Shown in pieces: positions 1,929 through 19,605 of a stretch of DNA of 22,818 nt. The first letter of the stretch is position 1. Each line of letters starts with the position of its first letter. The stretch lies in IMG/VR virus record IMGVR_UViG_3300009537_000190, positions 1 to 22,818 of that record. One strand, written 5' to 3'. Below the pieces are notes generated by a model. It was not told where the DNA came from. It saw nothing but the letters and a program-made list of their open reading frames with translations, and searched no databases. The stretch comes from a virus. Made by a program: the position numbers and the translations under genes.

Positions 1929-2192
1929 ATGCCAGCTAGAAATGTCCATGAAGTCAATATTACAAATTGGACTTCTCTTGGTAGCACTGCGCCAGTTGAT
2001 CGATATTCATTTGATCTTGAGATCAAATGGACTGACATGGCTGGCGTATTCCACACACATAGTGGAACCTACATTTTTCCAAACGATATAGTCTCAATGC
2101 CCTTGGTTAATATGCGCCATTTTGCTGAGATGATGGTGCTTGCGATGGTGAGAACAACGCTTGGCATAGATACCTGGGATGAATATACATGA
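1929..2192 (+). CDS. Small hypothetical phage protein
   Basis: This 87-residue protein has a good ribosome binding site (AAGGAG, 1918-1923, six bases before the ATG). It looks like a compact alpha/beta protein. An amphipathic strand region (YSFDLEIKWTD) and a threonine/histidine-rich turn lead to a C-terminal helix (MRHFAEMMVLAMVRTTLGI) that is hydrophobic but too broken by charges to be a clear membrane span. I recognise no family. Its stop overlaps the next start (ATGA at 2189-2192), so it is probably translationally coupled to the beta-helix gene, for which it could act as a partner or chaperone; that role is a guess. Confidence 0.55.
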   Translation: MPARNVHEVNITNWTSLGSTAPVDRYSFDLEIKWTDMAGVFHTHSGTYIFPNDIVSMPLVNMRHFAEMMVLAMVRTTLGIDTWDEYT

Positions 2193-3565
2193 CCATATAT
2201 TATGTTGGAAAAGGCGGAAGTGATGCGGAAAATGGTACGACTTGGGCGCTTCGCAAACTAACGCTCAACGGTGCAGAGGATATTCCCGTTGCTTCGGGCG
2301 ATACGGTATATGTGGGTCCAGGCGTTTACCGTGAGCGTTTGGATTTGGATGTTAGCGGGACTTCGATGATCACTTATATCGGCGATGTGACAGGCGAGAA
2401 TACCGATGGCATCGGAGGTGTTGTGCGTATTACGGGAAGTGATGACGACCAGACTGCAACACGGGGCAACTGCATTTTTAATGGCGGCACATACACAAGA
2501 AACTACCGCACATTTCGTGGGTTTGTTTTCGATCTGGCTACTAATAATCTCGTTGAAACCTTTGGGCCAAGTGATTACATCACGATTGAGGACTGTGTAT
2601 TCACGATGGGTGCAGCGGGATACTACTGTCTGTTCCTCGTGGGAACTAACAACTATATCAGACGCTGTATCTTCATGCCAGGACGTGATCCAGGGGGTAT
2701 ACGTCACTGGGCAGCCAGTGATAATACCGATGTTTCTTCGGTAATTGAGAACTGTATTTTTATTGGTGGCGGCGATAATTTTCAATCTTTTCGCACACAG
2801 GGGATTACCATCAGGAACTGCACGTTTCTGCACGGTAGAGATGATGGCGTGGATTGCGACCAGGCGATAACTGGAACGATAGACGTGAACAACTGCATAT
2901 TCTTTGGTATCTCTGGAAATGCCCTCGAAGCGGCGGAGACAGGCGACATTATCGAAAACTACAACTCGTTTTCTTTTAACTTCTCGGACCGCAGCCTTGT
3001 TGATACGGGTGCACAATCCAATGATTATCCTCCCCTGTTTGATTGGCCTGTTCTATTGGACGGGTTCATGCTCAAGAGTTACATGCTGGGAATATTATCC
3101 GAATGGTCTACGATTAAACGTATTACGGGGACTGGCGAGAGCACTGGGGATTTCTTTGGGATAGATAGACCCACAATCAGTTCGAAGAAATCGTGGGGGG
3201 CTTTCCAATATAGAGGGATAGAGCGAGAGACAATCACGACAAGAGGAACAAGCGCAGCGTCTTTGAAATTGGATGATGCTGGCGAGGCCATGTTTTTCGT
3301 TCCTGTCGATGGCTCGCAAATAACAATCTCGGCGTATGCTTATCATGAGGCTGACTATACTGGCACTCTGCCGCAGATGATCATCCAGCAACCTGGGCAG
3401 AGCGACAGGACAACAACGGACACGGGTTCTCATTCAACATGGAACCTGCTTACCGATACCTTTACCCCTTCTGGCACTGACTTTGTGGTGGTGACATTGC
3501 GTTCCCTCAATGAGGCAACCAGCGGTAATTACGATGTGTTCTTTGAAGACCTGGATGTATCCTGA
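2189..3565 (+). CDS. Right-handed beta-helix appendage protein, possible glycan-binding or depolymerase-like
   Basis: This 458-residue protein opens with the classic pectate-lyase-like entry: YYVGKGGSDAENGTTW, then GDTVYVGPGVY at residues 37-47. It continues as beta-helix rungs marked by a Cys-x-Phe ladder (NCIF 94, DCVF 134, RCIF 159, NCIF 188, NCTF 210, NCIF 235). The rungs end near residue 265, and a WGAFQYRG motif follows at about 336. Residues 345-458 look like a jelly-roll carbohydrate-binding module, with alternating strands and a terminal VFFEDLDVS. Such proteins are tail spikes or capsid/neck fibres that bind, and sometimes cleave, surface polysaccharide. I see no certain catalytic residues, so enzymatic activity is not claimed. 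There is no Shine-Dalgarno site; it is coupled by ATGA to the gene before and by TGATG to the gene after. GC is about 45% at 3001-3060, higher than the AT-rich repeats that follow. Confidence 0.7.
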   Translation: MTIYYVGKGGSDAENGTTWALRKLTLNGAEDIPVASGDTVYVGPGVYRERLDLDVSGTSMITYIGDVTGENTDGIGGVVRITGSDDDQTATRGNCIFNGGTYTRNYRTFRGFVFDLATNNLVETFGPSDYITIEDCVFTMGAAGYYCLFLVGTNNYIRRCIFMPGRDPGGIRHWAASDNTDVSSVIENCIFIGGGDNFQSFRTQGITIRNCTFLHGRDDGVDCDQAITGTIDVNNCIFFGISGNALEAAETGDIIENYNSFSFNFSDRSLVDTGAQSNDYPPLFDWPVLLDGFMLKSYMLGILSEWSTIKRITGTGESTGDFFGIDRPTISSKKSWGAFQYRGIERETITTRGTSAASLKLDDAGEAMFFVPVDGSQITISAYAYHEADYTGTLPQMIIQQPGQSDRTTTDTGSHSTWNLLTDTFTPSGTDFVVVTLRSLNEATSGNYDVFFEDLDVS

Positions 3566-4914
3566 TGGATTTCGATCTGTGGATTACCAACCGTATAGGG
3601 TTCGACATTGCTGCGCCAGCTAATGGAGGAACTGGTGACTTCGATACGTGGATCACGAATCGTATTTCATGGTGGGAGTATTGGAAAGCTCTTGTAGGGG
3701 GGGAAAGTTATCAACGGGGAATATATGATTCTATAGGAATTACAAGTGCAATAAATAATATTCAAACATATATTCGAACAGTGATAAATACAATAAGTGT
3801 AGTAGATATTATTTCTGTATTGGGTACTTATATTCGGACGATATCTGAAGCAGTTGGTATTACAGACACGTTTTCAAAAATTGGAACTTTTATAAAAAAT
3901 TTTGCAGAGACGGTTGGAATTACCGAGATTTTAACAACAGCAGTATTCAAATTAATCCTGTTTGTGGATGCGGTGAGTATAACGGATACCATTTCTAAAA
4001 TTAGTGCTTTTATAAGAATCTTACCAGATAATGTTGTCATAACAGATGTAATTTCTAAGATAGGTACTTTTATAAGAATTTTACTAGATACTGTTGGTAT
4101 AACAGATGCCATTTCAACAGCCATAGCATATATTGTAGCTCTAGTTGATTCAATTTCAATAACAGATATTCTTTTAGCGGCGGTATTCAAATTAGTTACA
4201 TTAGCTGATGCAGTAGGAATTACAGATATCGTAACAAAAATAGGAACTTTTATAAGGATAGTTGCTGATACAGTAAATATTACAGAGGTACTAACAAAAG
4301 TTGCAAATTACCTTGTATCAATAATAGATAACATTAGTTTAATTGATATAATTTCAACGAGCGTTAATTTTATTATAGCAATCGCTGATTCGATTGGCAT
4401 AACAGATGTTATGACAGCAATAAAAGGTGCGGGAGCATTCTTTGTAAATATTTATGATATAGTTAATATTACTGATGCATTAACAAAAACAGGTGAATTT
4501 ATACGAAATCTTGCTGATAACATAAATATAATGGATAGTTTTTCTAAAATAGGAACATATATTCGTACAATTTCTGAGAATCTTGATATTATTGATACTG
4601 TTGAATCAATTGTACACAGATTTATTTTTTTAACAAGTTCTATTGGTATTGTGGATATTTTTTCTACGATTCAAGGATATAAAAGAGAAATATTTGAAAC
4701 AGTTAATATTACTGATATGTTAAATAAAATAGGAACTTATATTCGTTCTGTTTTGGATGTGCTTGGAGTTACTGAAACAATTGGAGTTATAGGAGGAAGT
4801 TATCTCCAAATACCTTTTTTGCGAGGGCTTTTTAAAGTAATTATTGTTCCAACAGAAGAGTATAAAGTGGAAGTTATTTCTTCACGAAGTATAGTTGAGA
4901 TTATAGATGAGTGA
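3565..4914 (+). CDS. Virion-associated protein with about eighteen 20-residue tandem repeats
   Basis: This 449-residue protein starts at an overlapping TGATG. The head region (residues 1-54) contains two copies of a DxWITNRI motif (residues 5-11 and 28-34) and a Trp-rich stretch (SWWEYWK). From residue 56 to 398 there are 17 clear units and a partial eighteenth. Almost all are exactly 20 residues, with consensus xVGITDxxSKIGTFIRxxxD; unit 12 has three extra residues. The C-terminal cap (about 399-449) ends in alternating hydrophobic strands (VEVISSRSIVEIIDE). Exact periodicity with fixed Gly, Thr/Asp and hydrophobic positions suggests an elongated solenoid or shaft. I know no named family for it. 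Neighbours suggest a fibre or appendage. The repeat DNA is very AT-rich (13 of 60 G/C at 3721-3780), while the head region resembles the GC-richer gene upstream. Confidence 0.65.
   Translation: MDFDLWITNRIGFDIAAPANGGTGDFDTWITNRISWWEYWKALVGGESYQRGIYDSIGITSAINNIQTYIRTVINTISVVDIISVLGTYIRTISEAVGITDTFSKIGTFIKNFAETVGITEILTTAVFKLILFVDAVSITDTISKISAFIRILPDNVVITDVISKIGTFIRILLDTVGITDAISTAIAYIVALVDSISITDILLAAVFKLVTLADAVGITDIVTKIGTFIRIVADTVNITEVLTKVANYLVSIIDNISLIDIISTSVNFIIAIADSIGITDVMTAIKGAGAFFVNIYDIVNITDALTKTGEFIRNLADNINIMDSFSKIGTYIRTISENLDIIDTVESIVHRFIFLTSSIGIVDIFSTIQGYKREIFETVNITDMLNKIGTYIRSVLDVLGVTETIGVIGGSYLQIPFLRGLFKVIIVPTEEYKVEVISSRSIVEIIDE
3730..4758 (+). repeat. Coding tandem repeat, 60-bp units (20 residues), 17 full copies
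   Basis: Seventeen in-frame units run from S56 to D398 of the host gene; all are 20 codons except the twelfth, which has 23. The most conserved segment is KIGT[FY]IR (units 3, 6, 9, 14 and 17). The pair marked by AVFKL (units 4 and 8) recurs four units apart, hinting at higher-order duplication. Neighbouring units differ at the DNA level, so the array is old or diversified rather than a fresh slippage product. Confidence 0.85.
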
Positions 4915-4927
4915 AGGGAGTAGATGA

Positions 4928-5272
4928 ATGGCAGATTTTACGATTAAACGAAATGATTTATTGCCTAAATTAGAAGCGATTTTAAAAGACGGCAATAATG
5001 ATCCCGTTGATTTAACCGCAGCTACGGATATTGTTTTTCATATGCGCTTTGAAAAAGAGTCAACATTAAAAATTCAGGATGGAGAAGTTGATATTGATCT
5101 TGATCCAACAACGGGTAAAGTGTCTTATGAATGGCAAGGGGGAACTACAAGTGATACAGACACAGAAGGAATATTTCTTGGAGAATTCTCAGTTACTTGG
5201 ACTGGAGGAAAAGAACAGACTTTTCCAAGTGCAGGATATATTAATATAGAAATTTATGAAGACCTTGCGTAA
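4928..5272 (+). CDS. BppU N-terminal-domain-like small phage protein
   Basis: This 114-residue protein has a Shine-Dalgarno site AGGGAG at 4915-4920. It begins FTIKRNDLLPKLEAIL and continues through DLTAATDIVFHMR, a TGKVSYEWQ turn and a GEFSVTWTGGKEQTFP segment to a terminal YINIEIYEDL strand. This is the pattern of the immunoglobulin-like N-terminal domain of phage BppU-type baseplate/upper fibre proteins (ligand-polarising strands, W-[QT]-GG turn, terminal IEI strand). Here the domain stands alone without a fibre shaft. Stand-alone copies are common in siphophage structural clusters, sometimes close to capsid genes, and their function is not established. It could anchor an appendage or decorate the virion. 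Confidence 0.55.
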   Translation: MADFTIKRNDLLPKLEAILKDGNNDPVDLTAATDIVFHMRFEKESTLKIQDGEVDIDLDPTTGKVSYEWQGGTTSDTDTEGIFLGEFSVTWTGGKEQTFPSAGYINIEIYEDLA

Positions 5273-5312
5273 TGACATAAGTTGTGTGAATCTAATTGTA
5301 GGAGTTGAGAAT

Positions 5313-5579
5313 ATGTCGAACATACAAATTAAACGACGAACGATGAGATTGGTTCCTCGCAGTCCAAGCATTGATGGTTTTTTGCCTGCTGTGGTTGTTC
5401 CTGTTCTTTATGAGCGATGGAAGGGAGATAAATGGGGAAACGTTGTTGTTCTTCATGGTGGAATAACCTCTATTACTTGTGATATGGTTAAAAATGTAGG
5501 TTTTCAGGAACTATCAAAAGTTTATGGAATTCAGCAAACAAAATTATTTCTGGAAGCTGCGGGGCGAGGAGCCCTATAA
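5313..5579 (+). CDS. Small hypothetical protein before the prohead protease
   Basis: I place the start at ATG 5313, which has GGAG at 5301-5304 eight bases upstream. The earlier in-frame ATG at 5256 lies inside the previous gene and has no ribosome binding site. The resulting 88-residue protein is basic at the N-terminus (IKRRTMRLVPRSPS). It has a compact hydrophobic core (FLPAVVVPVLYERW, then NVVVLHGGITSITCDM) and a helical C-terminus (QQTKLFLEAAGRGAL). I recognise no family. In typical phages the portal precedes the protease; this protein is far too small to be a portal. It may be a minor head protein. Confidence 0.5.
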   Translation: MSNIQIKRRTMRLVPRSPSIDGFLPAVVVPVLYERWKGDKWGNVVVLHGGITSITCDMVKNVGFQELSKVYGIQQTKLFLEAAGRGAL

Positions 5580-5595
5580 TTTTATAGGCAAATAA

Positions 5596-7101
5596 ATGGA
5601 AAAGTCACCTGCTTGCAGACAAGAGGGTGAAACTAAAGAAGATTGTGTCGCTAGAAAAATTCCTGAGATCAAGGAAGAACACCCTGATTGGGCAGATGAT
5701 CAAGTTCAAGCCGTTGCTTATTCAATATGTGATGAGGCTTGTAGCGACAAATATATGAAGGAGAAAAACATGGCTGTGCGTTCACAAGATCAGTATATTC
5801 GCAAACATATTGGTGTTCCGCTTGAAAAAAGCTATGCGGCACAAGAAGACGGATCGATTATGGTCAGGGGATATTTTACTAGTGATGTAATCGATGAAGT
5901 TGGAGATATTATTACACGAGAAGCAACCGAAAAAGCTGTTCCTAAATACCGAGAATGGGGCAATATTCGTTATATGCACCTTCCCAAACCTGTAGCAAAA
6001 GTTGTTCGTATTGGGAAAGAAGATGGATTGAAATGGAATGAAGTTGAGATTCATGTTATCGACCCAGAAGCAGTTTTCCAGGTTAAAAACGGCTTACTTA
6101 AAGCGCTTAGTGTAGGGATTGTTATTCGTTCGTGGGACGATATTGAGATTAATGAAGAGACAGGCGGATGGGAAATTATCGCATACGAGCTTGTTGAAAT
6201 CAGTCTTGTTGATCATCCTGCCAATTATGATGCCAAATTATTTTTGGATGATGATAAAGTATTACCAGTTAATCGAGAGTTGCGCCAATTAGTTGCTGAT
6301 CACGGATTTGCCATGGTCTCCAAAGCCTTGGGCGCAATTACGTCCACTAAAATGGAGGAGGAAGTTGATATGGAAACACTGAAAGAAAACCTCCAAACGG
6401 AAGAGGAAATCGTGGCGGAGGAAGAGATTGAGGCTTCTCTCGACGAGGAAGAAATCGAAGAAGAGGAACTCGAACTCTCTGTTGATGAGGAAGAAGTGGA
6501 AGAGGAAGAAGAGGAAGAGGTTATCGAAGAAGTTCTTGATGAGATGGATGTTCGTCTTTCAGATGAGGACGAGGAAATCGAAGAGATCGATAGCGTGCTT
6601 CTGGATTCCGCTGAAGCTGAAGAAGAGAAAGACCTTGATGATGAAGAAGAGGAAGAAGAAGAACTTGACATAATCGATGAGGAGTCGATTGAAGAAGAAG
6701 TAGAAGAGGAACTGGGTATTGAACCCGACCTTATGGCACAATTTATTCCGCTGGCTAGAGCCCTTCTTGAAGTCCTTTCAGAGACCGAAGCAGAGGTTCC
6801 TATTGAGGAACAGTCTGAGGTAGAAAAGACGGAAGAGATTGAGGAAGCCCATGATGAATTTGCTGCACTGAAGGCACAGGTAGATGACCTTGGTTCTCAA
6901 GTAGCAGAACTTACAGAGATTCTTTATTCTCTGATTAAGCCTGCACAGCGAATGGGTAAAGTCAAAACCGATGCTCTTCCACATGAATCCGTAAAAGAAC
7001 TTGAAATGGAAGAAGAGGAAGAAACAGAGGATATGATGAAATCAGCCCTTCGTCGTTATCTAAAATCGCCTGGAAGAGTAGTAATTCGAGAAAGGCAATA
7101 A
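5596..7101 (+). CDS. HK97-type prohead protease fused to acidic scaffold-like region
   Basis: The frame encodes 501 residues. Residues 1-52 form a small module with four cysteines (C7, C17, C45, C49). Residues 60-220 are an HK97-family (U35) serine protease domain: HIGVPLEKSY and a VRGYFTSDVIDEVGD strand, then RYMHLP with probable catalytic His128, LSVG with probable nucleophile Ser172, and the late EISLVDHPAN motif. Residues about 254-400 are extremely Glu/Asp-rich, and a predicted coiled coil (ALKAQVDDLGSQVAELTEIL) follows near the C-terminus, as in scaffolding proteins. The protease would cleave scaffold and capsid precursor during procapsid maturation. The start at 5596 has only a weak AGG (5586-5588); in-frame ATGs at 5770 and 6370 have much better sites, so shorter products are likely. 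No separate scaffold gene is present and the next gene is the capsid protein. Confidence 0.8.
   Translation: MEKSPACRQEGETKEDCVARKIPEIKEEHPDWADDQVQAVAYSICDEACSDKYMKEKNMAVRSQDQYIRKHIGVPLEKSYAAQEDGSIMVRGYFTSDVIDEVGDIITREATEKAVPKYREWGNIRYMHLPKPVAKVVRIGKEDGLKWNEVEIHVIDPEAVFQVKNGLLKALSVGIVIRSWDDIEINEETGGWEIIAYELVEISLVDHPANYDAKLFLDDDKVLPVNRELRQLVADHGFAMVSKALGAITSTKMEEEVDMETLKENLQTEEEIVAEEEIEASLDEEEIEEEELELSVDEEEVEEEEEEEVIEEVLDEMDVRLSDEDEEIEEIDSVLLDSAEAEEEKDLDDEEEEEEELDIIDEESIEEEVEEELGIEPDLMAQFIPLARALLEVLSETEAEVPIEEQSEVEKTEEIEEAHDEFAALKAQVDDLGSQVAELTEILYSLIKPAQRMGKVKTDALPHESVKELEMEEEEETEDMMKSALRRYLKSPGRVVIRERQ
5758..5772 (+). promoter_or_regulatory. Internal ribosome binding site and ATG for the core protease
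   Basis: AAGGAG (5758-5763) lies six bases before an in-frame ATG at 5770 (residue 59). This start would give a protease without the Cys-containing N-terminal module, and its signal is clearly stronger than the one at 5596. Either both starts are used or 5770 is the main protease start. Confidence 0.5.
6354..6372 (+). promoter_or_regulatory. Internal ribosome binding site and ATG for nested scaffold
   Basis: GGAGGAGG (6354-6361) sits eight bases before an in-frame ATG at 6370, exactly at the junction between the protease domain and the acidic region. Such a site is what a separately translated scaffold would need. Caution: the region is Glu-rich, and GAG/GAA codons can create AGGAGG by chance. 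Confidence 0.5.
6370..7101 (+). CDS. Probable nested scaffolding protein (in-frame internal start)
   Basis: Starting at ATG 6370, the frame gives a 243-residue protein identical to the C-terminal half of the protease polypeptide. It is strongly acidic (long Glu/Asp runs), lacks recognisable enzymatic motifs, and carries a coiled coil near its C-terminus before a basic end (SALRRYLKSPGRVVIRERQ). These are common traits of phage scaffolding proteins, whose basic C-terminal helix often binds the capsid protein. Lambda Nu3, made from an internal start within the protease gene C, is the known precedent for this arrangement. The alternative is a scaffold used only as part of the fusion. The capsid protein has too short an N-terminal arm to hold a full delta domain, which makes a separate scaffold supply plausible. 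Confidence 0.5.
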   Translation: METLKENLQTEEEIVAEEEIEASLDEEEIEEEELELSVDEEEVEEEEEEEVIEEVLDEMDVRLSDEDEEIEEIDSVLLDSAEAEEEKDLDDEEEEEEELDIIDEESIEEEVEEELGIEPDLMAQFIPLARALLEVLSETEAEVPIEEQSEVEKTEEIEEAHDEFAALKAQVDDLGSQVAELTEILYSLIKPAQRMGKVKTDALPHESVKELEMEEEEETEDMMKSALRRYLKSPGRVVIRERQ

Positions 7102-7127
7102 AATCTTAATCTAAAAGGGAAAAAATC

Positions 7128-8501
7128 ATGGATACCGTAAAAGATCGTATTGTAAAGGATATTATGAGTCAAGTTCGAGGGGAAGAACTTCGCAAAGCGT
7201 TGTTAACAACGGGCGATGGTGCTGCACTTCTACCTTATGATCTTGATCCTATCCTCCATGAGGAACTCTTGAAGCTCCAGCCGCTTGCTGTTTTGCTGAG
7301 CATTATCCAGGCTGGAGGCAAAACCCATGAGTATTCTGTCCGAAGCTCTCACCCACAGGCATGGTTTGAAGGCGAAGTTACTCCTGCGAATGCCAAGAAT
7401 AGTGTATATGCTCGCAAGACCGTTGCAATGAAAATTCAGCGGATTTGGGGCTCTGTTTCTGGTTTCGCTCAGGCAATGGATGAGGCATTTGTTGATGCTC
7501 TCGCCGTTGAACTTGAAGGTTCGCTTGAAGGCATGTCCAACGTTCTTGAATATGGTTTGATGTGGGGTGCTGCTGATGACATTGGATTCACGGGTGACGC
7601 CTATCAGTATTCAGGCTTGATTCCTCGTTTAATGGCCTATGCCTCTGGCAATATTTTTGATGCTGGTGGAAATCAGATCACGTTGGATGATCTTGATCAG
7701 GCTTATGCGTTAGCAACAGGCTTCCGTGGAGTTCGTGGAGACCCGAAGGTTTGGTTGATGGGAACCCGAATGAAGCAGGTTGTTGATGGTCTCCAGCAGA
7801 GAGTTCAAATCCCTCTGACTGAAGCCGTTCTTGCAGACGGAAAGATCATCATGGCCGCATATGCAAATGTTCCGATCCTGGAAACCGACTATCTTGTTCC
7901 TGCAACAACTACAACTTCTCCAGCCGTCACCGCAGCCGCAGCTTCTGGTGGATCGTTGGTTGATGATGAGTACTTCTACATTATCTCTTCGGTCACCGCC
8001 ACAGGCGAGCAGGTTGGTGGTACGGAAGATAGTGCAACGACCTCCGTGACGGACAATACTGTTGATCTAACCTGGACCGCTGATGAGAATGCTTTGCTTT
8101 ACCTCATTTGGCGAGGTTTAGCAACAGGTGCTGCAAATATGAAGCTCCTAGACATCATCCCCGCACTTACCTATGATTCAGCAGGAACCGTTAGTGGTGC
8201 AGTTGAATCATACTCGGACGATGGTTCCATCGATACGGGTGCAGGTACTTCCCTCACCGATCTTCAGCCTCTATCCAGTGGTGAGCAGAATATCCTGCTA
8301 GTAAACTACAATCCACGTCGTGGTGCTGCATTTCTTGGTAAAGTTGACGACATGGGTCGTCCGACTGACCGTTTGTTCAGCTTCGTTGAGTTGGCACGAG
8401 TTAAGGATACCTACGACTATATGTTGAAGGGATATATCGCTTCTCGACTTGTACACCCGAATCTGGTTGCAATGGTTCGTCACGCAACACTTACCGCCTA
8501 A
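7128..8501 (+). CDS. Major capsid protein, HK97 fold, with inserted Ig/FN3-like domain
   Basis: The 457-residue product has a Shine-Dalgarno site AAGGGA (7115-7120). It follows the protease-scaffold gene, the expected place for the major capsid protein. Residues 1-255 show HK97-fold features: a short N-arm (LRKALLTTGDGAALLPYDL), the E-loop region (SVRSSHPQAWFEGE), the long spine helix (MDEAFVDALAVELEGSLEGM), and P/A-domain segments (DLDQAYALATGFRG, KVWLMGTRMKQVV, ANVPILETDYLVP). Residues about 259-375 look like an inserted beta-sandwich (DDEYFYIISSVTATGEQ, then TVDLTWTADENALLYLIWRG), typical of FN3-like surface domains. The HK97 fold resumes at LLVNYNPRRGAAFL and ends with a C-terminal GYIASRLVHPNLVAM strand. 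Inserted domains of this kind usually protrude from capsomers and may bind glycans or add stability. A terminator follows. Confidence 0.85.
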   Translation: MDTVKDRIVKDIMSQVRGEELRKALLTTGDGAALLPYDLDPILHEELLKLQPLAVLLSIIQAGGKTHEYSVRSSHPQAWFEGEVTPANAKNSVYARKTVAMKIQRIWGSVSGFAQAMDEAFVDALAVELEGSLEGMSNVLEYGLMWGAADDIGFTGDAYQYSGLIPRLMAYASGNIFDAGGNQITLDDLDQAYALATGFRGVRGDPKVWLMGTRMKQVVDGLQQRVQIPLTEAVLADGKIIMAAYANVPILETDYLVPATTTTSPAVTAAAASGGSLVDDEYFYIISSVTATGEQVGGTEDSATTSVTDNTVDLTWTADENALLYLIWRGLATGAANMKLLDIIPALTYDSAGTVSGAVESYSDDGSIDTGAGTSLTDLQPLSSGEQNILLVNYNPRRGAAFLGKVDDMGRPTDRLFSFVELARVKDTYDYMLKGYIASRLVHPNLVAMVRHATLTA

Positions 8502-11476: not shown

Positions 11477-11887
11477 ATGACAGAGAGTATCAAGTTTGCA
11501 GTTGCGGAAAAAGAGTTTGAGCTAGTTAAGACGGGTCGAGAGCAGGCAGAACAAGTTATTCAGCTTGGTAAATGGATCAATGAGTATGGTGTTCCTGCAC
11601 TTCAAAGAATGACAAATGAAGAAGGGGAAATCACCTTTGCTGGCGGATTTGATTTGCTCAGCAGCATCCTTCAAAGCCTTACTGTGGATGCCCTCATTGA
11701 TCTTTATATTCTTATCTTTGGTTGTAATAAAAAATTTGCTGATCAACATTTTGATATTGGGACTCTCATTGAAGCATTGACAGTTGTTTATAATGCTCAA
11801 CCATCTATCGGAAAGGTAATCTCCCGTTTTTTCTCGCAAGCTACATCCGAAAACGTTACGGAAGAGCCCTCCATGACATCAGAGTAG
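11477..11887 (+). CDS. Tail assembly chaperone, short form (G-like)
   Basis: This 136-residue protein precedes the tape measure and follows the major tail protein, the position of lambda gpG. The body is helical (IKFAVAEKEFELVKTGREQ, QVIQLGKWINEYG, LTVDALIDLYILIFGCN), matching tail assembly chaperones that start with a strand-forming segment followed by helices. The final 17 residues after the slippery site (SQATSENVTEEP and the rest) are low in structure, as expected of the non-shifted tail. Translation initiates at ATG 11477 behind GGAG (11467-11470). It would act with the frameshifted form to keep the tape measure extended during tube polymerisation. Confidence 0.75.
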   Translation: MTESIKFAVAEKEFELVKTGREQAEQVIQLGKWINEYGVPALQRMTNEEGEITFAGGFDLLSSILQSLTVDALIDLYILIFGCNKKFADQHFDIGTLIEALTVVYNAQPSIGKVISRFFSQATSENVTEEPSMTSE

Positions 11888-12276
11888 CCTATGGCTGGGC
11901 TGATGAAGAAATTTTTGAGCATATAGATATTTACGGACTTTCATGGCTGGAAGAAACATGGAAGTATATCCAAGAGGATAAATCCAATCATTATCGATGG
12001 ATGATGTTGGTAGCTCCCCTATCCAGGACTCCTATGGACAGAAAAGGAGCGCAAAATCAACGAACATATTCACAGAAGTTGCAGCGCTCTCTTGAAATGC
12101 TAACGCCATGGAGTGAGGATACGAAGTTTAATGCTTTGCGAAGAAAGTATGGCCCATCTATGAGGGGTGAGGCACAAGTTATTGTATCTTTTGATGCTAA
12201 TGATGATCCAAATAGCCCATTATTCAAGGATGCAATAACTACAAGAATAAAGAAAAAAAGCAAAGCAGAGGACTAA
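11477..12276 (+). CDS. Tail assembly chaperone, frameshifted long form (GT-like), join 11477-11833 and 11833-12276
   Basis: A -1 shift at T-TTT-TTC (11827-11833) joins 119 residues of the short form to 147 residues from the other frame, giving about 266 residues. The downstream frame is open before and after the slip site and has no good start of its own; the first ATG in it is at 12001, without a strong ribosome site. The shifted part begins LASYIRKRYGRALHDIRVAYG, then WADEEIFEHIDIYGLSW. An RxGxALxDIRVAYGW-type segment next to a predicted slip site is typical of GT chaperones. The tail continues with a basic, coiled region (MDRKGAQNQRTYSQKLQR) and an acidic middle. The stop codon (12274-12276) directly touches the tape measure ATG. 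By analogy with lambda, the long form should be made at a small percentage and bind the tape measure. Confidence 0.8.
11827..11833 (+). other. Programmed -1 frameshift slippery heptamer T-TTT-TTC
   Basis: In the chaperone frame the codons CGT-TTT-TTC contain T TTT TTC, a classic X-XXY-YYZ slip site. An AAAGG tract (11812-11816) lies ten bases upstream, the spacing of stimulatory Shine-Dalgarno elements such as in dnaX. Downstream I see only a weak 4-bp TCCG/CGGA stem (11846-11862). Confidence 0.8.
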
Positions 12277-15200
12277 ATGGCTCAATCTTCACATACTATT
12301 ACCCTAAGATTTAAGGGACAAGACCAAGTTAGTGCAGTAATCAATAAAACAAGCCGTGGCCTTCAGGTTATGGGGCAGGGTCTCAGTAGTGTTACTCAGA
12401 AGACAACCCAAACTGCTACTGGAGGACAAAAGTTTATTGGTTTCCTGCGAGCAGCAGAAACGGGTTTAAAGGCTGTTACTAACTTAGGACAAAATTTCTC
12501 TAACTCTCTTCGTCTTGCCGCACAGGGTATGATGTCTGTGGGCAAAGCAATGACCATTTTCATCACGCCTCTAATTGCTCTTGGTCTCAAAAAAGCTGCG
12601 GATGCCGCAATTGGTTTTGATGCAGCATTGATCCGTGTTGCAAAAACCACTCAATTGAGTGGGGATTCACTAGCGATGCTTGCTCGTGGTATACGAGACC
12701 TCGGGATCAATACTTCAACTTCACAAGTTGATCTTGCAAAAATGGGAGAACAAATTGGTCAGCTTGGTGTTCGTCATGTTCCTTCTATTCTTTCCTTGAT
12801 TGATACATTTAATATGCTTACGATTGCGACTGAAATCAGCGCAGATGAAGTTGCACTAGCAATGGGTAAGATTGCCAATGCCTTTGGTATTGATCTTAAT
12901 ACCGAGGAAGGGGCAGAAGAAATTGCTACACTTTCAAGTGTTATTAACCGTTTAGAAAATGAATTAGCTGCAACTGCCCCTCAAATTCTTGCGGGAATGG
13001 AGAATTTTGCTCAAGTAGCTAGTTTAATTGATGTTCCTCCTCAAACAGGCGCTGCTTTAATCGCTTCCCTTGTTTCTGTCGGTTTTTCTGCCGAAGAAGC
13101 AGGAACGGCATTACGTAATATGACGATTAAGGTCGTTCAAAATGCGGATGAAATTTCGCAGTTGATGAAAAATACAGAGGGATATGCTTCAACACAAGAA
13201 GTATTAACCGCAGTTAATGAGGATGCTGGAAAAGTTCTTATCGACCTTGTTGAAGCTGCCGCCGCAGGAGATGACCAGGCACGAACGTTATTTGCAACTA
13301 TTGAAGCAGGAGGAATTCGTGGTGGTAAAGCCTGGGCAGCAATGGCAGGTGGTATTGAGACATTCCGCAAAGCGTTAAATATCGCTGGTGATGAGTGGGA
13401 AGAAGCGCTTTCTCTTATTACAGAATATGAGCAAGCAATGCTATCCACAGAAAATCAGCTTGGTATTTTACGTAATAACTTTACTGAATTGGCATTGACA
13501 ATTGGTGATGTTCTTCTGCCAATCATTAATACATTAATTGCAACAGCGATTCCAGCGGTCCGTGCCTTAACAGAGGCGTTTAAAAATCTTCCTCCACATA
13601 TTCAAAAATTTATTGTTCTTGGAGCAGTATTATTAGCAGTTCTTGGTCCATTGATTATGTTTTTGTCCATGCTTGGGTTTGGTTTATCCATGGTTGCAAT
13701 TTCATTCTTCAAAATGGTCAGTCTTGTCGGTGGCGTAATTCTTGCTTTCCTTAAACTTGGAAGTATCTTTCTTACAATTATACAATTTATTGGTGGCTTA
13801 AGTGCGGGATGGCTTCTTGCTGTGGGTGCGATTGTATTAGGAATTGCTCTTCTTCTTACTCAATTTGGAAATCTTGGAGCTAAGCTTTCCCTATTTTTCT
13901 TGGGCTTAGCAGAAAAAGCCAGAGCATGGGGCGAAAATCTTATTGCAACTTATGGTGCGGGTCTTCTTTCTGCCGCTGTAACAGTTTTGGCTAAGGTTTT
14001 GACTGCAATTGGAAACTTTATTGGCAAGTTTCTTGCAGGTCGATCTCCTCCTGAATTAGGTCCTCTTTCTCATATTGATAAATGGGGCAAAAGTGTTTTT
14101 GATAGCTATTTACAGGGTTTTGCTGAAGCAGATTTTTCAATCTTAAGCGGTGTTGGTAGAATTATTGAAAACGTACTTAAATCCTTTGCGGCGGTAGGTA
14201 AAATTGGAGATAAACAGCAATTTACGTTTGCCATGAAAGCACGTCAAGACCTGGCGAAGTTAATTAATGTTTTCAATGATACTGGACAGATTGCTGAGGA
14301 TGTATTAGATTCTATCACAGCTAATATTGGTGAAGCTGCGGATGAAGTACAATCATTAATTCGCTTGTGGTTAGAGTATACTCGTATTCAAAAAGAATTA
14401 GCCGCATTGGAAGCTCGGCGTGAACAGGTATTAGATATTTATCGCCAGGAAATTCAATTAATCGCACAATCCAATATGACTGCTGAAGAAAAAGCTGATG
14501 CCATTCGTGAAGCAATGCGTTCTCGTGATGAAGAATTGCGTGCTGTTTCTGAAGAAGAACGGGAACTTCAAAAACAGAAAACTGTGGTAGAAGAACAACT
14601 TGAAATCCAACGAGCGATGATTGATGCTATGCAGGATCAGGATGAGCTTCAACTTCGTCTATTGGATACGCTCGATAAAATGAGCGGTAAACTGGACGCA
14701 TTAGGAGATTTTTCTTTTCCTGAGTTTGAAGGCTTCCCTGAACCCGATGTCTCTGGAATTTCAGAGATCGGGGAACAGCTTCTTACAATGCAAGATCGTA
14801 TTTCTCAAGGTGAAAAGGCGTTTCAGGGATTTATGGATGCTCTTACAGGGGCGGATTTTGATGAAACGCTTTTTGCCGAACTAAAAGCTTTTGATGAAGA
14901 AGCAGGAACAGATTTTGCAAATACATATAAAGCTTTATGGGAAGCAGGAAATAAAATTTATACAACCTGGGAAAAAATAAAAACCACCTGGCAGTCAGCA
15001 AAAGACACATTTGCCGCACTTACTGGTCTTTTCAGTGGAGAAGGGTTAAAGGGTCTTATCCCTGAAGGTGCGGCAGAAAATATAGGAAAACTTACGGATG
15101 CTGTGGGGAAGATAGTAGGATTTATTGCGGATAATATAGATACGATTTTGGTTTTCATTGGCGTATTTGCTGGACTTGGAAAAGTTGTTCCAATTATTAT

Positions 15201-16965
15201 GACCTTAGCGACAACATTAGGAGATTTATTTTGGGTTCTTGGAGCAGGAGGAACTGTAAGAATACTATTTTTTAAATGGATAGGAGATATAGGAAATGTT
15301 TTGATAGGAGTAGGACCAGCAATCATGGGATTGATTACTAAAATCCCCATTCTTGGAACGGTATTGTCTACATTGGGTGGACCGATTACGCTGGTCATTG
15401 CATTGGTTGCTGCTTTAGTTGCCGCCTGGGTAACAAACTTTGGGGGTATTCGGGATAAGGTAGGGGCAGTAATTGATTGGATTAAGAATGGATTAGCATC
15501 TTGGGGAGACGTGTTTTCAAATCTTGGGATAATTATTAAAAATAAGTGGGAAGATATAAAGGGGGCATTTGATAATGCTAAACAGGCATTGTCGGAAAAG
15601 TGGGGAAAGATAAAAGAGGGCATTCTTGGAATGGCTGATTCTTTTCGTGAAGGATTTCAAAATATAAGAAATGTTGTTCGAAGTAAAGCGACACAAATAA
15701 AAACAGCATTATCTAATGCTTGGGGTAAAGCAAGTAAAGCGGTAGAGGATGTTTGGACTGGGTTGAAGGAAGGAGCCGCAACTGTAGTAGATGGCTGGAT
15801 TTCTACATTCCAGGAAAGCGCTCTTGGTCAGCTTCTTACTACTTTATGGGAATCTATTAAAGAAAATGCATTGGAAATTTGGAACACGTTTGTTGAAGAA
15901 TTTGGTCCAATTTGGGAAGACGTAGTTTTAATTGTGACGACGGTTTGGGACAGGATAAAAAATAAAATTATTGAGGCATGGGAAAATATTAAACTGGCAG
16001 TTGAAACTGCATGGACGACTATAAAGGATTGGTTAGTTGCACAATGGGAAACATTTAAAACCTCCGCTTTGGCAGTTTGGGAATTTATTAAAAATTCTGT
16101 TATTACCGCTTGGGAAACCATTAAAACGTTTATTGTGAACTTATGGAATAATATCAAAGACCAGGTTTTAGCCGCATGGGAAACGTTGAAAGGAAATCTT
16201 CTTGCCGCATGGGAAACGTTTAAAGGAAACGTTATTACTGCCTGGGAAGGAATTAAACAATCTGTGATAAATACTTTTGGTCCAATTGTAGACTTAGTTG
16301 TTGGGATTGTAACGAACATTAAAAATAAAGTTGCTGCAAAATGGGAAGAAATCAAGCAAGATGCTATTATTCTATGGGAAAATATAAAAGCTGTGATAGG
16401 AGAAAAATGGGACGGAATAAAAACATGGGTTCAGGAAAAAGTGGAGGCGGTTAAACAGGCTATTTCAGATTTCAAGCAGGGTTTTATCAATGTAGGAAAA
16501 GCTCTCATACAGGGCATAATTGATGGTATCGGTTCCATGATACAGAACTTAATCAATAAAGCTGCTGGGGCAGCACGAGCAGCACTTGATAAAATTATGG
16601 GAATTCTTGGAATGGGCTCTCCCTCCAAGGTTTTATTCGAGGTCGGTATTAATATGCTTAAAGGTATGGCGGGGGGTATTTTAAATGCAAATGATTTGTT
16701 AATGGGTGCATTAGATACAACATTCTCGATGGGACTTCAAACAACACAAGAATTTGCTATGGCTGCTGCTACTCCTGTAATGTCTCCAATGGGAGGTACA
16801 CCTGTTTTTGGACAAACATCAGCACCAATTACACTTAATTTTGGAAAAGATTCTGTACGCAGTGATCGAGATATTACAGATATCGCCGAAGCGGTTGAAC
16901 GAGTTCTTGCACGAAGGGCACAGGGAAATATTAGCGCAGGAATGGCTTACGGAGAAGAATTTTAA
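12277..16965 (+). CDS. Tail tape measure protein
   Basis: This 1562-residue protein sets tail length and is threaded inside the tube. The N-terminal part (about 1-440) resembles TP901-type tape measure cores (SVGKAMTIFITPLIALGLKK, AADAAIGFDAALIRV, LSGDSLAMLARGIRDLG, FGIDLNTEE). A hydrophobic block follows (about 441-531), then an AGRSPPELGPL/IDKWG motif (587-604) and a charged coiled coil (about 699-808, with ELAALEARREQV). A second hydrophobic block (about 945-1058) precedes twenty 11-residue Trp/Ile-Lys repeats (1190-1409), and the C-terminus has the usual MGSPSKVLFEVG motif (1446-1457). At roughly 0.15 nm per residue the tail would be near 230 nm. The hydrophobic blocks fit tape measures that insert into the host membrane. 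The start follows the GT stop directly, with AGAGGA just before it. The presence of two SPP-type motifs suggests two fused modules. Confidence 0.9.
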   Translation: MAQSSHTITLRFKGQDQVSAVINKTSRGLQVMGQGLSSVTQKTTQTATGGQKFIGFLRAAETGLKAVTNLGQNFSNSLRLAAQGMMSVGKAMTIFITPLIALGLKKAADAAIGFDAALIRVAKTTQLSGDSLAMLARGIRDLGINTSTSQVDLAKMGEQIGQLGVRHVPSILSLIDTFNMLTIATEISADEVALAMGKIANAFGIDLNTEEGAEEIATLSSVINRLENELAATAPQILAGMENFAQVASLIDVPPQTGAALIASLVSVGFSAEEAGTALRNMTIKVVQNADEISQLMKNTEGYASTQEVLTAVNEDAGKVLIDLVEAAAAGDDQARTLFATIEAGGIRGGKAWAAMAGGIETFRKALNIAGDEWEEALSLITEYEQAMLSTENQLGILRNNFTELALTIGDVLLPIINTLIATAIPAVRALTEAFKNLPPHIQKFIVLGAVLLAVLGPLIMFLSMLGFGLSMVAISFFKMVSLVGGVILAFLKLGSIFLTIIQFIGGLSAGWLLAVGAIVLGIALLLTQFGNLGAKLSLFFLGLAEKARAWGENLIATYGAGLLSAAVTVLAKVLTAIGNFIGKFLAGRSPPELGPLSHIDKWGKSVFDSYLQGFAEADFSILSGVGRIIENVLKSFAAVGKIGDKQQFTFAMKARQDLAKLINVFNDTGQIAEDVLDSITANIGEAADEVQSLIRLWLEYTRIQKELAALEARREQVLDIYRQEIQLIAQSNMTAEEKADAIREAMRSRDEELRAVSEEERELQKQKTVVEEQLEIQRAMIDAMQDQDELQLRLLDTLDKMSGKLDALGDFSFPEFEGFPEPDVSGISEIGEQLLTMQDRISQGEKAFQGFMDALTGADFDETLFAELKAFDEEAGTDFANTYKALWEAGNKIYTTWEKIKTTWQSAKDTFAALTGLFSGEGLKGLIPEGAAENIGKLTDAVGKIVGFIADNIDTILVFIGVFAGLGKVVPIIMTLATTLGDLFWVLGAGGTVRILFFKWIGDIGNVLIGVGPAIMGLITKIPILGTVLSTLGGPITLVIALVAALVAAWVTNFGGIRDKVGAVIDWIKNGLASWGDVFSNLGIIIKNKWEDIKGAFDNAKQALSEKWGKIKEGILGMADSFREGFQNIRNVVRSKATQIKTALSNAWGKASKAVEDVWTGLKEGAATVVDGWISTFQESALGQLLTTLWESIKENALEIWNTFVEEFGPIWEDVVLIVTTVWDRIKNKIIEAWENIKLAVETAWTTIKDWLVAQWETFKTSALAVWEFIKNSVITAWETIKTFIVNLWNNIKDQVLAAWETLKGNLLAAWETFKGNVITAWEGIKQSVINTFGPIVDLVVGIVTNIKNKVAAKWEEIKQDAIILWENIKAVIGEKWDGIKTWVQEKVEAVKQAISDFKQGFINVGKALIQGIIDGIGSMIQNLINKAAGAARAALDKIMGILGMGSPSKVLFEVGINMLKGMAGGILNANDLLMGALDTTFSMGLQTTQEFAMAAATPVMSPMGGTPVFGQTSAPITLNFGKDSVRSDRDITDIAEAVERVLARRAQGNISAGMAYGEEF
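15844..16503 (+). repeat. Coding 33-bp (11-residue) Trp repeats of the tape measure
   Basis: Twenty consecutive 11-residue units occur at a fixed phase. Trp codons fall exactly 33 bases apart from 15847 to 16243 (13 in a row), then Phe (16276) and Val (16309), then Trp again at 16342, 16375 and 16408. The consensus unit is AWExIKxxVxx. This is the known tape measure hendecad-type pattern, in which one helix face contacts the tube interior. Confidence 0.9.
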
Positions 16966-18465: not shown

Positions 18466-19605
18466 ATGAAATTATTTATCGCCCTTTGGAAGACTTATGC
18501 AGAGAGTAAAGCGGATTTCGCAGAGATGACGAGTCGATTTTCTGGTTTAGGTTTTGATACAGGTCTTCATGGAGGCTTCGGCGCATGTTCTTTTAAGGTG
18601 GAGGTTGGGGGGTACAATGCAATTCGTTGGTATCGAGATTATGTTGGATACCATATGGTTCTTTTTGATCATCTTGGTAGACGACTCTACGAAGGACGGG
18701 TAGATTCTACAGATGCGGATACACAAGGGGTACGAGTAAGTTGTGTTGGATATTATAGTCATGCACAAGATTTAACGCATGGTATAATTTATCCTGCTTC
18801 AACGCCAACCTCGATTTCAGAGATCATTGAAGATACGGTTGATCTTTCGGATCAATGGTGGGCAAATCATGCAAGAATCAAAGTTACGACAACAGACATT
18901 ACCCCACAAGATTTTACGGGAGAGCAAAAACTGCGAGATGCGATTGAGCAGGTTACAAAATTTGGGGATGATGGAGTTATTCCTGTACCAATTTATTTTG
19001 CAATTTGGGAGCACCGTCTTCCTCATTTATTTGCAGAACCAGACATTACCGCAGTGGAACCTGATTGGCAGGTTTTTGTGAGGGATTTTGGTGGAGGACA
19101 GGGGCTAACATTGAGTCGTAATCGAAGCCAACTTTATAATAAAATTCAAGTTCTCTATGATGATCCTGATATTGGGGCAACATTTACAGATTGGGAAGAA
19201 GATTCAGTCAGTCAAACATTATATGGTGTACGAGAGGGAAGTTTGAATATTGGACCTGCATTACCTGGAATTGCAGATACAATGGGGGAGCTTGCACTAC
19301 ACAGTTATTCCAAGCCCACTCAATCTTCACAATTAGGTATTTCTGGGCGAGTATATACTCAAGCAGGCGCACCCGATTACCCGTATATGGTGCGAGCAGG
19401 GCAGTTGATTCGTATTAACGATTACGATCCTTCAGTAGCACAACTAGTTAGTGCAGAAAGTGGTGAGGATGCTGCAATATCTTTTATTACTCGCACAAAT
19501 TATAGTGCAGATAACAATACATTAAAGGTTGAGCTTGGACGTAAAAACGTTGCACTTGACCTTTTGATGGCACGACTTGGTATGGGATCAGCGAGCGTGA
19601 GATAA
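18466..19605 (+). CDS. Tail hub / Tal-like baseplate protein
   Basis: The 379-residue product starts two bases after the previous stop, with no clear Shine-Dalgarno site, suggesting coupling. The N-terminal part has the beta-barrel run typical of gp27-like tail hub proteins: FGACSFKVEVGG, YRDYVGYHMVLFDHLGRR, LYEGRVDSTDADTQGVRVSC and a VGYYSHAQDL motif. The middle contains TPTSISEIIEDTVDL, often a helical linker, and the C-terminal part (YNKIQVLYDDPDIGATF, ISGRVYTQAG, VRAGQLIRINDYDPS, LKVELGRKN) is a further barrel. No lysozyme or peptidase motif is visible. It would close the tube end and anchor the fibre protein encoded next. Confidence 0.65.
   Translation: MKLFIALWKTYAESKADFAEMTSRFSGLGFDTGLHGGFGACSFKVEVGGYNAIRWYRDYVGYHMVLFDHLGRRLYEGRVDSTDADTQGVRVSCVGYYSHAQDLTHGIIYPASTPTSISEIIEDTVDLSDQWWANHARIKVTTTDITPQDFTGEQKLRDAIEQVTKFGDDGVIPVPIYFAIWEHRLPHLFAEPDITAVEPDWQVFVRDFGGGQGLTLSRNRSQLYNKIQVLYDDPDIGATFTDWEEDSVSQTLYGVREGSLNIGPALPGIADTMGELALHSYSKPTQSSQLGISGRVYTQAGAPDYPYMVRAGQLIRINDYDPSVAQLVSAESGEDAAISFITRTNYSADNNTLKVELGRKNVALDLLMARLGMGSASVR

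Follow-up and report, generated by a model that had tools for sequence, protein, structure and literature searches.

What is encoded by a gene that repeats a 20-residue unit some eighteen times next to the head genes of a virus? The window (the whole stretch of DNA analyzed here, 22,818 nucleotides) is a 22.8-kb viral contig, and its gene order runs from two ORFs at its start through the companion, small ORF, beta-helix, repeat and Ig-like genes and one further ORF to the head protease, as follows:

58–1086 and 1087–1338: two ORFs, with relatives of both at the same place in the related contigs L004 and L012
1365–1916, + strand: companion gene, 183 aa, phrog_5417-like, with the C-terminus DTLxVxWExTFxGS
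1929–2192, + strand: small ORF of 87 aa between the companion and the probable adhesin gene
2189–3565, + strand: right-handed beta-helix protein, 458 aa (Pfam Beta_helix PF13229, E = 5.5e-8, above cut-off)
3565–4914, + strand: repeat protein gene, 449 aa, ATG to TGA; N-terminal segment with a duplicated DFDxWITNRI motif, 18 shaft units, short C-terminal tail
3727–4815, + strand: repeat array, 17 whole units and one fading, consensus DTVGITDIISKIGTYIRILA
4387–4455, + strand: single 23-residue unit, DSIGITDVMTAIKGAGAFFVNIY, common to relatives
4928–5272, + strand: small Ig-like/BppU-N-like gene, 114 aa (phrog_1627, E = 1.9e-7)
5256–5579: ORF after the Ig-like gene
5596–7101: head protease (Pfam Peptidase_S78)
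7128–8501: major head protein (PHROG match 1.9e-10; Leptospira phages LE3/LE4, 25% identity), with connector and tail genes downstream
12277–16965: tape-measure-like ORF, 1562 aa, followed by two tail-like ORFs, the 18466–19605 protein being tail-hub-like
19605 to the window end, where it is open: tail-appendage-like ORF, 1071 aa

The tape-measure-like, tail-like and tail-appendage-like names derive from sequence character and gene order. Ahead of the tape measure gene, a pair of neighbouring small ORFs in different frames (11477–12276) resembles the frameshifted tail assembly chaperones. The stop of the beta-helix gene overlaps the ATG of the repeat gene (TGATGG), and the beta-helix protein, encoded in the same operon, is probably an adhesin- or spike-like partner; the small ORF at 1929–2192 had no match in the relatives compared.

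The first-pass annotation had proposed about eighteen exact 20-residue units, and this register is clearly present: self-identity of the 449-aa protein reached 0.29 at lag 20 (0.27 at lag 40, 0.31 at lag 60), against a lag-20 maximum of 0.155 in 2,000 shuffles. Units start at residues 55, 75 ... 275, then 298 ... 398, and the array spans residues 55 to ~417, where the 18th unit fades into the C-terminal tail. As had been claimed, unit 12 (residues 275–297) alone departs from this spacing in the window protein, with 23 residues, and it is no private oddity, as one or two such units with a similar core recur in relatives of the window's class. "Exact" holds for the spacing only; the sequences are degenerate, with VGITD exact in 3 units, GTFIR exact in 2 and the full consensus found in one unit. 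Identity between units was 0.48, 0.60 and 0.43 at codon positions 1, 2 and 3, respectively; since positions 1 and 2 are more alike than position 3, the register seems to have been maintained by constraint on the protein and not by recent copying of the DNA. The G+C content is about 0.29 in the array and 0.48 in the gene before it and in the first 52 codons of the repeat gene itself, which gives the repeat gene a mosaic look with a junction at about 3720; the step within the gene, at 3565–3720, is sharp (0.48 to 0.27), and the duplicated DFDxWITNRI motif lies in the first 35 residues of the protein.

No credible match to the window repeat protein was found in Pfam, PHROGs, PDB sequences, isolated phages or plasmids, nor did phmmer and profile searches of PDB chains return a credible match to any beta-spiral shaft. 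Foldseek of the AlphaFold2 models against the PDB gave nothing significant, and the open-access literature searched held no description of the repeat. The absence of a described family, as first supposed, was thus upheld in family libraries and PDB sequences, and the element is real and apparently undescribed.

Several candidate matches were set aside. Pfam Ribosomal_S5_C (PF03719) scored above cut-off, with 22.9 bits summed over short repeat matches of which no single stretch passes, a false positive due to repetition; Zein, TetR_C_9 and similar Pfam matches were likewise repetition artefacts (in L037, at 367–2412, Zein reached 1e-13 on repeats). Two Foldseek matches below 1e-3 in BFVD were to unnamed or uncharacterised proteins and came from a low-confidence model. 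The tblastn matches to Mycobacterium phage Aminay and to PhiCh1 fell in a frame antisense to the annotated gene; that to the PhiCh1-type repeat tail fibre was spurious, with no homologous repeat in the sense frame. Aminay gp26 (L029/L168), annotated as a minor tail protein, carries a 20-residue repeat (VGLSVTPTLAVAGxxRxxxx) that may be an independent tail repeat of this length; read in antisense it gives VGVTD, which can mislead six-frame searches. Peptide-pattern searches with the repeat proteins of the window, L007 and L018 returned only themselves or nothing, the patterns being too idiosyncratic. Repeats of the same type do occur in two unannotated PHROGs of unknown function, phrog_22415 (matched by the relative L047, E = 6.9e-9) and phrog_12240 (by L045, E = 8.8e-20), neither of which is matched by the window protein itself.

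The same capsid protein is encoded on 19 viral contigs, three of which (L003, L007 and L018) carry a 20-residue array upstream of the protease, in proteins of 993, 608 and 841 + 260 aa that match the window protein at E = 1e-22 to 1e-59. Their N-terminal domains differ from one another and from that of the window protein: L003 begins with a weak H-type lectin match (E = 0.0017, below cut-off), L007 and L018 with other non-repeat domains. In L004 and L012 the repeat block is absent while its neighbours remain, and the block thus behaves as an exchangeable cassette. The division in L018 stems from a frame break inside the array (7100–7141), which may be an error, a pseudogene or a programmed shift.

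Beyond these relatives, a DNA pattern that requires two VG[x]TD motifs at a distance of exactly 20 codons was found in at least 120 stretches of IMG/VR viral contigs and in 24 stretches of GTDB genomes (257 billion bases), among which only L144, a phage-like contig in a MAG, gave a repeat-profile score. Overall, arrays are encoded in at least 40-odd viral loci. The matches listed, together with loci added later, comprise at least 66 distinct repeat proteins (counted after grouping by shared 30-mers), at least 44 of them complete, of 207–1553 aa. Among the matches listed, the carriers are three relatives of the window phage and many unrelated tailed phages, the spacing is 20 in 500 of the steps counted (minor classes 18, 21, 22 and 23), and unit number in relatives ranges from about 5 to nearly 60. 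An isolated phage, Shewanella phage vB_SbaS_Y11, carries a related-looking repeat (DSAxVSDSxxx, ~20–22 residues; L169, 5656–7041) in a hypothetical protein of its structural block, a possible cultivable test case.

What the first-pass annotation had overlooked is that this element is widespread and modular and travels with the companion gene at 1365–1916. The companion matches phrog_5417 over most of the domain (residues 44–180 on profile positions 30–156 of 156, E = 4.8e-11), which was also matched by all 8 aligned relatives, and neighbours of several arrays end, like it, in DTLxVTWEITFLGS. A companion profile built from six sequences detected the gene in 18 of 40 array loci vs. 6 of 78 other pattern loci among the matches listed (Fisher p = 4.6e-6), a comparison biased by profile seeds that themselves come from array loci; those 6 loci hold weaker repeats. 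A companion-only scan of viral contigs is the stronger test, as the repeat was not used in the search: 34 of 46 loci carried an array, always on the same strand (34/34), and the other 12 end within ~2.5 kb on one side of the companion. Where at least 4 kb was available on each side, a repeat gene was present in 25 of 25 loci, or 16 of 16 once seed contigs and two duplicates were removed (two of the 16, L176 and L186, being weak or distant matches). The array usually lies downstream of the companion within 0–3 kb and sometimes upstream. The repeat gene is linked to a phrog_5417-like companion in both directions of search. The companion was not detected in L003 and L007 within the flanks examined, and among isolated phages the search returned one weak match only (Achromobacter phage vB_Ade_ART, E = 6e-3), which is closely followed by an annotated tail fibre gene that has no repeats.

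An Ig-like-type gene directly follows the array in L003, L007, L018, L121, L174, L046 and L187/L188 (profile search). The profile rests on seven hand-chosen, poorly aligned seeds, so the seeds' own scores are by construction, and its finds beyond them are L007, L046 (the L174 contig), L063/L187/L188 and, marginally, L018. The window product matches phrog_1627 and presumably resembles the N-domain of siphophage baseplate upper proteins (BppU-like) and Ig-like proteins. Several contigs have, along with the module, a glycosyltransferase-like gene that starts xxDGVxPTGFxxVxHxIIKYLP (L113, 3339–4574; L131, 7820–9001; L171, 5450–6628; L051, 6297–7538; L174, 12194–13459).

As dozens of unrelated phages join the unit to varied front-ends beside the same companion, the unit probably forms the shaft of a viral adhesion fibre of a kind not yet described. 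We favour, with some confidence, a repeat protein that is the shaft-bearing subunit of such a fibre, most likely seated at the head or neck; it would then be a virion protein, as first proposed. In the arrangement that we infer, from incorporation into the virion to adhesin function, oligomeric state and anchoring roles, a variable adhesin domain, N-terminal or separately encoded, would contact the host surface or its polysaccharides, and the 20-residue units would build a long repetitive rod, with the number of units determining its length. The short C-terminal tail, the phrog_5417-like protein (1365–1916) and the Ig-like protein (4928–5272) would fix the fibre to the virion, most likely to its head or neck.

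The seat on the virion is suggested by gene order. In the window the repeat gene stands just before the head protease gene, in agreement with the earlier description of a regularly repeating element among appendage genes close to the head genes, and the module falls between head and head-tail connector genes in most loci inspected (in L113, L131, L171, L174, L200 and L205 between capsid and connector genes, as judged by gene order, sizes and sequence character). This placement is not universal: in the actinophage-like contigs L059 and L061 the repeat gene is in the tail module. A tail fibre or tail-tip adhesin of the same architecture, attached at the baseplate or tail hub, would explain why the repeats of L059 are part of the same chain as a domain resembling the window's tail-hub-like 18466–19605 protein (E = 1e-6) and why the repeat gene of L061 lies downstream of a tape-measure-like ORF, and many phage adhesins do sit on the tail. 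We nonetheless consider it unlikely, given the head/neck block that holds the gene in the window, L003, L113, L131, L171, L174, L200 and L205, and the separate large tail-appendage-like gene of the window (19605 to its end).

For the fold of the shaft, AlphaFold2 monomers from 19 and 69 rows were all-beta, with mean pLDDT of 52 and 57 and strand layouts that disagree; with both models below pLDDT 60, no fold is established. We lean slightly toward a beta rod, which on these models would most likely be a beta-solenoid or an intertwined beta fibre. An alpha/beta coiled coil, with trimeric ~13-residue helices and a short beta-layer every 20 residues at the VGIT motif, concerns the fold alone and fits a head/neck or a tail location. 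The hydrophobic moment of the unit in the window's class peaks at 100–110 degrees, in the helix/coiled-coil range, and the core spacing 3-4-3-4-2-4, which we read as two heptads and a hexad, sums to 20. However, both AlphaFold2 models are beta although coiled-coil helices are usually easy for this method, strand propensity exceeds helix propensity (1.17 vs. 1.02), and sister units (DPVGITDSVT...) are rich in beta-branched residues and contain proline. Most known beta-layers come from phage trimers (PMC4786415), which counts for a coiled coil, but the unit consensus DTVGITDIISKIGTYIRILA does not fit their published consensus, [aliphatic]-A-T-K-[polar]-[DE] (PMC4786415), and we regard this fold as distinctly improbable. 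Least probable is a product outside the virion (a phage protein that is secreted or associated with membranes, or else a disordered spacer): the strongly hydrophobic units (I, L, V and F, 42%) would suit it, yet that hydrophobicity argues against disorder, and the one-strand structural gene block, the conserved companion and Ig-like genes and the L059 fusion to a tail-hub-like domain speak against it.

The adhesion fibre that we favour, with its beta rod, resembles several known systems. Triple beta-spiral shafts (adenovirus fibre) are built of a varying number of short repeated units with a turn-like motif that bears glycine, and these and other beta fibre shafts form an elongated shaft between anchor and knob; the window array is alike in its short repeated unit, its glycine-bearing motif and its variable number, and has no sequence match to triple beta-spiral shafts. 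The tail fibres ORF34/ORF36 of the haloarchaeal virus PhiCh1 are likewise tandem-repeat fibres of a tailed virus, but their 30-nt (10-residue) repeats of the SQTAMDAVSD type differ from the 20-residue units. The head fibre gp8.5 of phi29 (cited in PMC12796354) is also a repetitive elongated fibre from a head-region gene of a tailed phage, a comparison of how it works only; it is helical, whereas the window shaft is modelled as beta at low confidence, and gave no match in the PDB sequence and profile searches. Known fibres would work in a similar way, but the repeat matched no named family, and its membership in any of them found no support.

Taken together, we tentatively entertain, as possible though somewhat improbable in its full extent, a horizontally shared fibre system in which many unrelated tailed phages combine a new-fold rod of 20-residue units, swappable adhesin heads and a phrog_5417-type assembly/anchor protein at the head or neck. 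Two protein families whose function is unknown come together here in one testable module, found in many environmental phages. The motif D-x-V-G-I-T-D, recurring every 20 residues next to a DTLxVTWEITFLGS gene, offers a signature for annotating probable adhesin genes that go unrecognized or are wrongly named in present libraries, and Ribosomal_S5_C or Zein labels in public records may conceal further members of the repeat family. The module may hold a new fibre fold, and it draws attention to head/neck adhesion, a step that seems to have been overlooked.
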